Origin: Nitrospirota bacterium
GTDB taxonomy: Bacteria; Nitrospirota; Thermodesulfovibrionia; Thermodesulfovibrionales; UBA1546
Assembly (NCBI GenBank): GCA_009773185.1
Contig: WPIF01000023.1
Location: 1-44,631 of the forward strand
Reading direction: 5' to 3'
DNA: 44,631 nucleotides
Both the position numbers and the translations under genes were made by a program. This document shows positions 27,903 through 35,534 of this stretch, in pieces (the stretch's first letter is position 1; every line of letters begins with the position of its first letter). The notes below the pieces were generated by a model, which was not told the DNA's origin, searched no databases, and was given only the letters and a program-made list of their open reading frames with translations.

Positions 27903-28394
27903 ATGACAAACAACATTTTGATAGCAATAAGTATAATTTGTTTTTTGGGCTGTGGCCATGTGGCCCCAAAAGAGTTAAGGCAAACGGTGGATAAGGACCT
28001 TACAACCGCTGCTTTATTTAAAGACACTGATGCGCACAAGGGAAAGATTGTCATGCTTGGAGGAATAATTGCAAGCTCAAAAAATACTGACGAAGGCACT
28101 TATCTTGAAGTGGTAGAGAAGGAATTGGATTACCGTGGTGAGCCAAAGGATACAGACATATCCCATGGAAGATTTCTTATTCTTTATGACGGCTACCTTG
28201 ACACGGTTATATATGCCAGGGGCAGAGAGGTTTCAGTTGTCGGTGAGATTCTCGGCAAAAAAATTCGTCAGCTTGGGGAGACACAATATCCATATCCTTT
28301 AATAAAAAGCAAAAAGCTTTATTTGTTTGAAAAACAGCGCAAGCAGCGCAATATACCCGTGAGGTTCGGGATAGGGATATTACACACCTTTTGA
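27903..28394 (+). CDS. slp: Slp-family outer-membrane lipoprotein
   Basis: 163 residues. Lipobox at IICFLGC (Cys17), then an Slp-like body: KDLTTAALFKDTDAHKGKIVMLGGIIASS, EVVEKELDYRGEPKDTD, GRFLILYDGYLD and VSVVGEILGKK. Slp (starvation lipoprotein) in E. coli is an outer-membrane lipoprotein induced in carbon starvation and stationary phase; precise function is unknown. No Shine-Dalgarno; the -10 box is six bases from the ATG. The gene is bracketed by two parS sites. Confidence 0.85.
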   Translation: MTNNILIAISIICFLGCGHVAPKELRQTVDKDLTTAALFKDTDAHKGKIVMLGGIIASSKNTDEGTYLEVVEKELDYRGEPKDTDISHGRFLILYDGYLDTVIYARGREVSVVGEILGKKIRQLGETQYPYPLIKSKKLYLFEKQRKQRNIPVRFGIGILHTF

Positions 28395-28419: not shown

Positions 28420-28591
28420 TTTCAGCTTATCCAATAGTTTTCTCGCCGTATAACACGTCGAGCGGGCTGGTTTGGAATTTTGTTGTGTACGAAAACCCAT
28501 AAAAAACCTCCCACACTTTTGACCTGTAATATCATAAATTATAAAGTCTCACATTAGCCTGCCTCATTGATATTTAACAAGAATTTTGATA

Positions 28592-28620
28592 TTGCAGTAT
28601 TCAATTCAAAATGCTATCAT
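28592..28620 (+). promoter_or_regulatory. Promoter upstream of the GIY-YIG cassette
   Basis: TTGCAG (28592-28597), 17-base spacer, TATCAT (28615-28620). A short hairpin, ATCTGCC/GGTAGAT, follows at about 28638-28656. It lies outside the cassette boundary at 28661/28662 and would transcribe into it. Confidence 0.5.
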
Positions 28621-28661
28621 GACGCAAATAGTTTGAATCTGCCTTCGAGGTAGATTATATG

Positions 28662-29487
28662 TTAGCACAATAAAGGAACAACCAAATGAATAAACAAGAA
28701 ATTATTTCAGAAATAAAGCGTATTGCAAAAGAATGTAACGGCAAGGCACCTGGTTTTCAGCGTTTTGCTTCTGAGACGGGAGTTCGCAAATCAGAATGGT
28801 ATCCAAATCTATGGTTACGCTGGAGCGATGCCATCATTGAGGCAGGGTGTCGGCCGAATGATTTTAGTGTTGCCTACGATGTTGCATTTCTAATTGGTAA
28901 ATATATTGAACTCATTCGCGAGCTCGATCATTTTCCAATTGAAGGTGAACTCGCAATCAAGAACAAAACTGACAAGAAATTTCCGAGTCGCAGTGCATTT
29001 TCTCAGCTTGGTTCAAAGCAGGAGAGAGTTCAGAAGGTGATCGAATATTGCAAAGAGAAAAGCGAGTTTAATGACATTATTTCGCACTGCAAAGCAGCTG
29101 CAAGATCTACAAGCAATAAATCCGATTCAACCAATTCGAATTCTATCAAGGCTGGTTATGTTTACATTATAAAGCATGGCACACGAAATGAATATAAAAT
29201 TGGTAGGACAAACAATCCTATTCGTCGTGAAGGAGAAGTTCGTTTAGAACTCCCTGAAAAAGTAAAGCCCATTCACTACATAAAAACGGATGATCCTGCT
29301 GGAATTGAAAATTACTGGCATTTACGATTTGCCTGCAAACGAAAAGAAGGCGAGTGGTTTTCACTGACAGCGGAAGATGTCCGTGCATTCAAAAGATGGC
29401 GAAGAATTTATTGATAATAAATATAAATCGAAGCTAACAAATCAATACAGCTGACCCTCGCTCCGCTCGGGCAGCTGATTTCGGATG
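28662..29487 (+). mobile_element. Integron-type gene cassette (826 bp) carrying a GIY-YIG gene
   Basis: Left boundary G|TTAGCAC at 28661/28662; right boundary G|TTAACC at 29487/29488, within an attC-like hairpin. The inner core of that hairpin (GCTAAC, 29433-29438) is the exact complement of GTTAGC formed at the left boundary, as expected when a circular cassette is inserted between G and TT. It contains a single gene in the same orientation as its attC. No integrase is in the window. Confidence 0.7.
28686..29414 (+). CDS. GIY-YIG (T5orf172/MUG113-like) protein with HEAR-like N-terminus
   Basis: 242 residues. The N-terminal ~60 residues (IISEIKRIAKECNGKAPGFQRF, then YPNLWLRWSDAIIEAGC) resemble the homing-endonuclease-associated repeat. 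The C-terminal ~90 residues are a GIY-YIG fold of the T5orf172 type: AGYVYIIKHG, YKIGRTNNPIRREGEV, IENYWHLRFACKRKEGEWFSL. Such proteins are predicted nucleases in phage and accessory DNA. AAAGGAA precedes the ATG. Codon use (CGT, CGC, TTT-rich, few AGG) looks unlike the surrounding host genes. It is the only gene of the cassette. Confidence 0.8.
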   Translation: MNKQEIISEIKRIAKECNGKAPGFQRFASETGVRKSEWYPNLWLRWSDAIIEAGCRPNDFSVAYDVAFLIGKYIELIRELDHFPIEGELAIKNKTDKKFPSRSAFSQLGSKQERVQKVIEYCKEKSEFNDIISHCKAAARSTSNKSDSTNSNSIKAGYVYIIKHGTRNEYKIGRTNNPIRREGEVRLELPEKVKPIHYIKTDDPAGIENYWHLRFACKRKEGEWFSLTAEDVRAFKRWRRIY

Positions 29488-29493
29488 TTAACC
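29432..29493 (+). repeat. attC: attC-like recombination site
   Basis: Outer cores AGCTAAC (29432-29438) and GTTAACC (29487-29493). Inner arms CAGCTG-A-CCC (29448-29457) and GGG-CAGCTG (29469-29477), leaving A29454 extrahelical as in real attC hairpins. AAATC and GATTT extend the fold. Predicted cleavage is after G29487. It starts 17 bases after the GIY-YIG stop. Confidence 0.72.
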
Positions 29494-29515
29494 GCAATGC
29501 CCGGGAAAAATATAT

Positions 29516-30124
29516 ATGGAACAACCAAGTAGAACGCCTAACATAGGACAATCCACAAATAAACAGCTCTGGAATATGAAGACCATTGCATTAGTTTCAT
29601 CTGCTGTTGTAATCGTGATTTCTCTCACGGTATTTTTTGTTAGCAAGAGGTCAATCTATGAGGAACTTGAAACTATGGCTTCGATTATTGCCCTTATTCT
29701 TTTTGTTTTTCTTTCCTATGGCCTTTACAAGGGCGCAACCATAATTGGAAAGCCCTTATTTCCTGAACTTAAATTCGTTGACCTGTCCCTTGCCGATGCT
29801 CCGACAATAGATGTCCCGGATATTGATATAGGGGACGGCATAGGAGGAATAATCGTATCTATTATCCTGTGGATTGTTTTAACAGTTGTTATTTTCTTGC
29901 TGCTGGCGTTTGTTTTCACCACGTTGTGGTCAGTCTTACTCTTACTTGTTTTTGCACTTTACTGGATATTCTATCGCGCTCTGAAAATCGTTTTTTTAAA
30001 AGCTCGGTTATGCAAAGGTAATTTGGGGTTGAGTATAAAGTATTCTTTAATGTACACGGTTCTTTATACAGGATGGTTTTTCGGCTTGATATGGCTGAGC
30101 AATTATTACTTAAACAAAGGATAA
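29516..30124 (+). CDS. Membrane protein of unknown function
   Basis: 202 residues, unrecognised. Two N-terminal membrane helices (ALVSSAVVIVISLTVFFV and ASIIALILFVFLSYGLY), a middle loop with the acidic stretch LADAPTIDVPDIDIGDGIGG, then two or three more helices (VSIILWIVLTVVIFLLLAF, LWSVLLLLVFALYWIFY, and YTVLYTGWFFGLIWLSNYY). No catalytic motif. It begins 22 bases after the attC core of the preceding cassette, so it could itself be cassette-borne, but its own attC is not convincing (a weak GCGGC/GCCGC pair occurs at 30134-30179). No Shine-Dalgarno. Confidence 0.6.
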   Translation: MEQPSRTPNIGQSTNKQLWNMKTIALVSSAVVIVISLTVFFVSKRSIYEELETMASIIALILFVFLSYGLYKGATIIGKPLFPELKFVDLSLADAPTIDVPDIDIGDGIGGIIVSIILWIVLTVVIFLLLAFVFTTLWSVLLLLVFALYWIFYRALKIVFLKARLCKGNLGLSIKYSLMYTVLYTGWFFGLIWLSNYYLNKG

Positions 30125-30279
30125 CTCGCACTGCGGCTAAAAGTAGCGTAAAAGTATATAAACCGAAAGAATGCCGCATACTATAAACAACTATGAATTC
30201 ACCCAACGGTTGATTTTATTTAGCCTCCTGTGTTATAAATATTGACTCCTTGCTCTCTCTTTTTAGGGTAGGGCTAAAA

Positions 30280-30297
30280 ATCCCGACGTGTCGGGAT
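30280..30297. promoter_or_regulatory. Perfect inverted repeat in the rpsF leader
   Basis: ATCCCGAC, two bases, GTCGGGAT: 8-bp perfect arms, 20 bases before the rpsF Shine-Dalgarno and start. A weak promoter (TTGACT at 30242, TAGGGT at 30264) lies before it. It could be an operator or an RNA hairpin for S6/S18 feedback. It does not match the known S6:S18 leader motif clearly. Confidence 0.4.
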
Positions 30298-30319
30298 AAA
30301 TCCATAAGGAGGTGTTCGA

Positions 30320-30694
30320 ATGGACATCTATGAAAATATTATTATCATTAATGCATCGCTCTCTGACGAAGAGATCGAAGCTGCCTCAGGAAAAATAAAA
30401 GACCTCATAACAAGTTCCGGCGGTGAAATACTCAAGGTTGATGTATGGGGCAGAAGAAAGCTTGCCTACGAGATTGAGAAGCAAAACAAAGGATTTTATC
30501 TCCTTCTTTTCTTTAAATCCCCCTCATCAGCAATAAGAAAGCTCGAGGATTACTACAAAGTCTTTGATCCTGTAGTGAAATATATGGTTTTAAAGTTACC
30601 GAAAAAACAGAGCGAAGCCGTATTACAGTCAATTTCTGCCGGGGCAGGCGCACCTGTTTCTGCAGAAAAAGCAGAGCCAAAAAGCGAGGCCTAA
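30320..30694 (+). CDS. rpsF: 30S ribosomal protein S6
   Basis: 124 residues. Family signature: MDIYENIIIINASLSDEEIEA and VWGRRKLAYEIEKQNKGFYLLLFF. The last ~25 residues are an Ala/Lys/Glu tail. AAGGAGG precedes the ATG. It is followed directly by ssb (stop TAA adjacent to ATG) and rpsR, the common bacterial order. S6 binds S18 in the central domain of the 30S subunit. Confidence 0.95.
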   Translation: MDIYENIIIINASLSDEEIEAASGKIKDLITSSGGEILKVDVWGRRKLAYEIEKQNKGFYLLLFFKSPSSAIRKLEDYYKVFDPVVKYMVLKLPKKQSEAVLQSISAGAGAPVSAEKAEPKSEA

Positions 30695-34783: not shown

Positions 34784-34877
34784 GTATAACGACCATGCTC
34801 AGGAGCGCGGGGCAACCACGCTAAAACTGAAAACAAAAAGCAGATAATCCCGCGTCGCCTGGAGCAAATTGTTCGAA
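34784..34877 (-). repeat. attC: Second attC-like site, minus strand
   Basis: Read on the minus strand: inner core TTCGAAC (34877-34871) right after the gene's stop codon, arm GCTC-C-AGG, then CGCGGG, a long loop, CCCGCG, CCT-GAGC, and outer core GTTATAC (34790-34784). The arms pair with one extrahelical C. Length about 94 bases, within the range of known attC sites. Confidence 0.7.
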
Positions 34878-35285
34878 CTCAGAGTTTCTTCATTTTCTTA
34901 TAAAAGTTATCGCCTTTATAGATAATCAGATTTTCTACCGAATTTATTTTGACCAGTTGCATTTCACCCGACTTATATCTGGAAAGAGGCGTAACTTCGA
35001 AATTACCATATACTTGGACGCCGGGCTCTGTAAATAGATCTTCTAATGCTTTTGGCATTTCAGCAGGTTCCGTATCGCCGCCTGGGATGCCAAGAAGCCT
35101 ATTTGTTCCGATAATCCATATTCGGAATGAGGGTGTGCCGTTGTAAATCATTAATCTGCCGTGCAGTTTAAATGGTGAATTTGTCTCTATATATCTTTTC
35201 GTATCGTCTGCATTCCCCGTGAGAGGCAAGAGAAGCAGAAGGAGCAATATTGCAGTTTGTTTATATTTCATTTTATTGGTTCGAA
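34790..35285 (-). mobile_element. Integron-type gene cassette (496 bp) with a secreted-protein gene
   Basis: On the minus strand the cassette begins G|TTCGAAC at 35286/35285 and ends G|TTATAC at 34790/34789. The inner core of its attC (TTCGAAC) is the complement of GTTCGAA formed at the left boundary, the rule for an inserted cassette. One gene, same direction as the attC. Neither boundary coincides with the tRNA duplication. Confidence 0.65.
34879..35271 (-). CDS. Small exported protein of unknown function (cassette gene)
   Basis: About 130 residues. Signal peptide MKYKQTAILLLLLLLPLTGNA, then a mature domain with SPFKLHGRLMIYNGTPSFRIWIIGTNRLLGIPGGD and GVQVYGNFEVTPLSRYKSGEMQLVKINSVENLIIY, looking like a small OB-fold-like beta barrel. 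No recognised family and no cysteines after the signal. The start at 35271 is chosen because a promoter lies at 35321-35349, inside any longer reading. No Shine-Dalgarno. The stop abuts the attC core. Confidence 0.65.
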   Translation of the reverse strand: MKYKQTAILLLLLLLPLTGNADDTKRYIETNSPFKLHGRLMIYNGTPSFRIWIIGTNRLLGIPGGDTEPAEMPKALEDLFTEPGVQVYGNFEVTPLSRYKSGEMQLVKINSVENLIIYKGDNFYKKMKKL

Positions 35286-35296
35286 CATTATTTTTT

Positions 35297-35429
35297 ATGC
35301 CGCATGCGTCTTTTTGATAGATTTTAGGGTAAACCATACGTTCTGTCAATAAAAATCTCTAAACTATGGGTGCTTAACTAATTGAAAAATAAAGCAAATA
35401 ATTTTTAGTTAATTATTATGCCGCATGCG
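35297..35429 (-). promoter_or_regulatory. Promoter between two CGCATGCG operator-like sites
   Basis: Minus strand: TTGACA (35349-35344), 17-base spacer, TAAAAT (35326-35321). The 12-bp word ATGCCGCATGCG (plus strand) occurs at 35297-35308, just after the predicted transcription start, and again at 35418-35429, upstream of the -35. Each has the palindrome CGCATGCG. The arrangement suggests a repressor bridging the promoter. The promoter lies outside the cassette boundary (35285). Confidence 0.55.
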
Positions 35430-35534
35430 ATATAATTTGCGAATTAATTATATTGCTTAAGATTGCTGCTTAAAGCCCGCGATTTGTTAATCAGCGATTG
35501 AGATTATAGAAGGCAATCAGGTAAACTTTAGGCA

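Follow-up and report, generated by a model that had tools for sequence, protein, structure and literature searches.

How cassettes without an integrase arise, whether by off-target insertion, by loss of intI or by rearrangement, is an open question in integron research. Cassette DNA that bears attC sites with no intI nearby is known as a CALIN (PMC9024848), and loss of intI is among the origins that have been proposed for it (PMC8618304); by default, IntegronFinder 2 reports a CALIN from at least two attC sites, single-attC cases being optional. In the inactivated chromosomal integrons of Xanthomonas, intI has been deleted at a chromosomal platform while the cassettes have been kept (PMC12444791). 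Single cassettes at a chromosomal G|TT are known as attG insertions, attG being, in the work as it is cited in PMC12444791, a site that is neither attI nor attC. The delta-attI unusual gene cassettes of mobile integrons, finally, involve attI-derived and oddly placed sites that still recombine (PMC12901181). Here we analyzed a window of 44,631 nucleotides from a Nitrospirota bacterium (GCA_009773185.1, contig WPIF01000023.1; the genome is G000 below), in which an earlier note had described a lone gene cassette. The element in this window is very probably a decayed sedentary chromosomal integron that has kept its predicted promoter, its attI and a GIY-YIG cassette (Table 1).

Table 1. Features of the two integron units in the window and of their flanks.
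Feature	Position	Strand	Basis or remarks
slp lipoprotein gene, left chromosomal flank	27903..28394	+	Pfam Slp 1.5e-36; 92% identical flank in G002
intI 3' remnant, SPLDVLYGEKTIG-stop	28427..28468	-	matches IntI C-terminus
intI 5' remnant, ~11 codons from the start codon on (MGFRTQQNSKP)	28469..28500	-	same start as broken intI of G005:C238
attI region, lineage A	28483..28661	+	homology to other attI sites; ends at crossover base G28661
Predicted cassette promoter Pc, TTGCAG - 17 bp - TATCAT, extended TGC	28592..28620	+	sequence; conserved
Gene cassette	28662..29487	+	boundary rule; orthologues in cassettes elsewhere
GIY-YIG nuclease-like ORF, 242 aa	28686..29414	+	Pfam MUG113 1.8e-14, T5orf172 7.8e-9; weak N-terminal HNH_repeat
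attC site	29432..29493	+	covariance model; crossover G29487|T29488
Orphan membrane-protein ORF	29516..30124	+	between attC and rpsF; without G002 counterpart
Right flank, rpsF promoter and gene	30205..30694	+	homology resumes: 98% to G002:C254, 82% to G003:C29
Second-cassette attC	34784..34877	-	R1 28.7 bits; TTCGAAC core complementary to left edge
Second-cassette ORF, 130 aa, signal-peptide-like start	34879..35271	-	ORF after boundary G35286|TTCGAAC
Second attI, lineage C, predicted Pc TTGACA-17-TAAAAT	35286..35451	-	90% to G009:C17 attI adjoining intact intI

The GIY-YIG unit is a true integron gene cassette, as had been proposed from a hairpin and its matching edges. The covariance model R1, whose training set consisted of 16 attCs from related genomes with the window sequence left out, recovered the attC at 30.9 bits (E 4.7e-5), 21 bits above the second-best match anywhere in the window (9.9 bits, filters off). 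The attC core GCTAAC at 29433-29438 can pair with the left edge, G28661|T28662 TAGC, and the cassette thus obeys the boundary rule for insertion as a circle; hairpin, boundaries and coordinates all stood as first described. In other genomes, orthologues of the gene are carried by cassettes: one lies between two attC sites in G007:C13, another ahead of an attC in G013:C36, and others in Cycloclasticus and Kuenenia bins, where they precede different attC-like sites. The model match, the paired edges and these orthologues together establish that the cassette is real. The significance of the attC likewise rests on how well it scores with the model, on its matching boundary and on the relatives. 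Taken by itself, the free hairpin would be weak support: its folding as single-stranded DNA was modest (z -1.35 to -1.69) and a custom stem scorer found equally good stems in shuffled sequence. An Rfam search gave no match to an attC family. A difference in codon use from the neighbouring genes, which had also been put forward, proved too small to be of use as an argument (GC 0.398 and GC3 0.325 in the GIY-YIG gene, 0.39-0.45 and 0.36-0.43 in its neighbours). The encoded protein exceeded the curated cut-offs of both Pfam families (54.5 bits for MUG113, cut-off 22.3; 36.4 bits for T5orf172, cut-off 20), and we infer a DNA-cutting role for it. The cassette proteins had no match in PADLOC-DB at E 0.1, the GIY-YIG protein being thus unmatched to known anti-phage defence.

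The DNA to the left of the cassette was also recognizable. The 178 bp 5' of it (28483-28660) had another copy in the same genome (G000:C41) with 81% identity, and the attI region was 82% identical to those of G005:C238, G015:C49 and G012:C16; 70 bp of the same stretch were present at 84% in a sister species. A family-wide search revealed more copies, nearly all of which stop at ATATG|TT, with unrelated sequence beyond it. In G005:C238, a divergent, broken intI that starts MGFRAQEQNSEPVLPEF... has the window-type attI upstream of it, which is the standard integron layout; among the relatives, this broken copy was the only intI beside exactly the window type of attI, and no intact one was found. 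In the window, the minus strand from 28500 to 28427 carries the first intI codons fused to SPLDVLYGEKTIG and a stop, that is, an intI with an internal deletion. Its C-terminal remnant is short (about 14 residues) and matches the C-terminus ...NAPQSPLDALYG... of the IntI proteins from G010, G025, G046, G018 and G004, the diagnostic SPLDVLYG of the remnant corresponding to SPLDALYG of complete IntI proteins. The presence of both intI ends beside attI therefore indicates an integron remnant rather than a cassette that landed at a G|TT by chance, and the left site is, as judged from its sequence, the attI of an integron with a deleted intI. Hence, of the parts of a complete integron, the window retains an attI with a G|TT crossover and a cassette with its attC and complementary left boundary, but just the two ends of intI.

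We infer the following events for this decay. A standard intI-attI-cassette platform would formerly have been located between slp and rpsF, and the cassette would have entered it as a circle by attC x attI recombination. This entry is strongly indicated, since it would account for both the left edge TTAGC and an attC that now ends with the other half of attI, TTAACC. An internal deletion would have taken out almost the whole of intI, of which about 11 codons from the start and 14 from the end are left, and attI, the outward-facing Pc and the one GIY-YIG cassette with its attC would have been retained. Transcription of the nuclease gene probably still starts from Pc.

The flanks of the element were compared with those of the sister genome G002, in which slp and rpsF are adjacent without an insert (rpsF 98% and slp 92% identical). 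G002 lacks more than the cassette: the whole 28430-30204 block is missing there, and this block is either an insertion in the window genome or a loss in G002. The orphan ORF of the block is possibly a second cassette that has lost its attC; as such it is unsupported, since no GGTTAAC attC core was found for it and it has no relatives in 60 related genomes.

With regard to the integrase, its reported absence was borne out for the assembled genome: no IntI above the TIGR02249 cut-off was detected in the 44 contigs of G000, an assembly broken enough to hide an intI that fell on a contig break. None above the family cut-off was detected in the three other genomes of the same genus either, and elsewhere in the family six genomes each encode one or two IntI above the cut-off. 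In G000:C41, a hicBA toxin-antitoxin pair was observed in place of the middle of intI, with both intI ends kept (L028/L058); the HicBA genes lie between the intI start and a C-terminal fragment that is 86% identical to a complete IntI. The first 154 bases of the contigs C5 and C26 of G004 (L100 and L101) encode nearly identical IntI C-termini, which suggests that repeated intI copies break that assembly.

The cassette had also been called solitary, and in this respect the description did not hold, as a second attI-cassette-attC unit, likewise with no intI, lies 6 kb from the first one (34784-35451, minus strand). These two units belong to a much larger set, since 60 attI sites of three lineages (A, B and C) were found, spread over 15 of the 16 genomes of the family, with as many as 12 sites in G004 and 8 in G000. 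GTT is present at the boundary in 50 of the 60, and a boundary-matched attC followed 19 of the 59 testable sites, compared with 24 of 900 control G|TT positions. Only one site, that of G009:C17, is located beside an intact intI, and intI fragments accompany a few others. Where lineage A sites are eroded, conservation is reduced to about 75 bp, the minimum of which (-71 to -80) begins at the predicted -35 box of Pc; such shrinkage to a promoter-attI core would fit selection for keeping cassette expression.

Two further observations concern the movement of these sites. At one chromosomal place, a lineage C attI is found in G010:C111 (L157) and a lineage A attI in G015:C274 (L082) and G012:C19 (L086), as if attI modules had been swapped or repeatedly inserted at one spot. 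Lineage B units at unlike loci (L091, L098, L092, L094 and L090) have a common left end near -240, inside the intI remnant, which suggests the spread, in one piece, of a unit whose truncation had come first. This common end also raised the idea that the attI units are transposon-like in origin; inspection by eye showed no terminal inverted repeat.

Several sites point to changes of cassette after intI had been lost. G015:C49 and G012:C16/C128 represent one locus in two species, with homologous left flanks, right flanks 91% identical and overlapping G012 contigs at the joint; the truncated intI is the same in both, the 245-bp attI region is 96% identical, and from G|TT on their cassettes are wholly different. 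The same locus is present without the element in G004 and G009. Similarly, G000:C38 and G012:C71 have the stretch from -392 to 0 in common, truncated intI included, and differ in their cassettes. G000:C41 (lineage A) and G000:C20 (lineage B) do not differ over the 55 bases that begin at +1. This 55-bp start, found after G|TT at two unlike attI sites of one genome (L058 and L091), contains an inverted repeat and is possibly a very small cassette. Taken together, the differing cassettes at orthologous attI sites and the common 55 bp suggest cassette turnover in trans, and IntI acting in trans is the simplest reading of these cases, although homologous recombination between repeated attI units may also be their source.

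These data raise the alternative that intI-less attI-promoter sites remain active docking sites for an IntI that acts in trans and is either encoded at another place in the genome or present transiently, in which case the window cassette may have entered after the loss of intI. The sister loci with flanks of about 90% identity or more and the same truncated intI, the pair with the common -392..0 region, the 55 identical bases and the ratio of 60 sites to one intact intI beside them all speak for this possibility. Nevertheless, G000 has no IntI today, homologous recombination between attI units or import of a whole locus could also swap cassettes, and no allele of the window locus with another cassette was found, so that we regard this alternative as possible but rather unlikely. 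Only tentatively, then, may the family integron be pictured as distributed, with many attI-promoter docking sites of several lineages whose cassettes are replaced by an integrase in trans. In this picture, which is doubtful though conceivable, the sites, of which a single 2.3-Mb genome has up to 12, would each hold one or a few cassettes but no integrase of their own, while intI genes would come and go.

Returning to the decayed integron, its origin at the window locus does not need an integrase in trans. The earlier note had taken the left edge as a secondary G|TT site and a lone cassette there as evidence for integrase activity in trans. The second claim finds its support away from the window, at the sister loci with the same intI truncation and unlike cassettes and in the 55-bp identity; the first one fails, since the site is an attI with a predicted promoter and the two ends of a deleted intI. 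A single cassette, a genome without intI and the lack of the insert at the G002 locus would all be expected if an integrase in trans had placed the cassette at an attG site, but such a target should be unrelated to attI or attC, whereas the left flank is the conserved attI of many cassette boundaries, joined to both ends of the deleted intI, and what G002 lacks extends beyond the cassette; this origin is therefore highly improbable. Finally, a chance hairpin behind an unrelated GIY-YIG gene, which the unexceptional folding energy alone would allow, is refuted by the 21-bit lead of the R1 match together with the attI homology, the matched boundary and the orthologues in cassettes, and deserves practically no credence.

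The family makes the steps of integron decay readable side by side, from the intact integron of G009:C17 through the broken intI of G005:C238 and the deleted middle of the window copy to the HicBA genes that replace intI in G000:C41 and then to bare promoter-attI cores, and its attI sites offer a natural test for cassette exchange in trans at integrase-less attI. IntegronFinder seeks attI in class 1 integrons only (PMC9024848), and dispersed sites of this kind are therefore likely to have been missed elsewhere. In a literature search that took in a minority of the subscription papers, nothing on point was found on intI-less, orphan or multiple attI sites.

Among the known systems, CALINs and the inactivated integrons of Xanthomonas are the closest to the window element. 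Like a CALIN, it has an attC without a neighbouring intI; unlike one under the IntegronFinder 2 default, it has one recognizable attC instead of two (R1, block 28430-30204), and its attI, its predicted promoter and both intI ends can still be identified, so that an origin by intI loss is visible in the window itself. The Xanthomonas integrons share the deletion of intI at a chromosomal platform with retention of cassettes, but they occupy one platform locus (ilvD), whereas here there are many dispersed attI sites, several lineages per genome and mostly one or two cassettes at each (PMC12444791). The attG insertions, as far as they are described in PMC12444791, resemble the window element in the single cassette at a chromosomal G|TT and differ from it in that the window site is attI-homologous and abuts intI remnants. 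In the delta-attI cassettes, which belong to class 1 and 2 integrons, pieces of attI follow resistance genes, whereas the attI described here is upstream of its cassette, carries a predicted promoter and is chromosomal (PMC12901181). At the level of the family, novelty lies in the multitude of dispersed attI sites, in their division into several lineages and in the apparent turnover of cassettes after intI loss.
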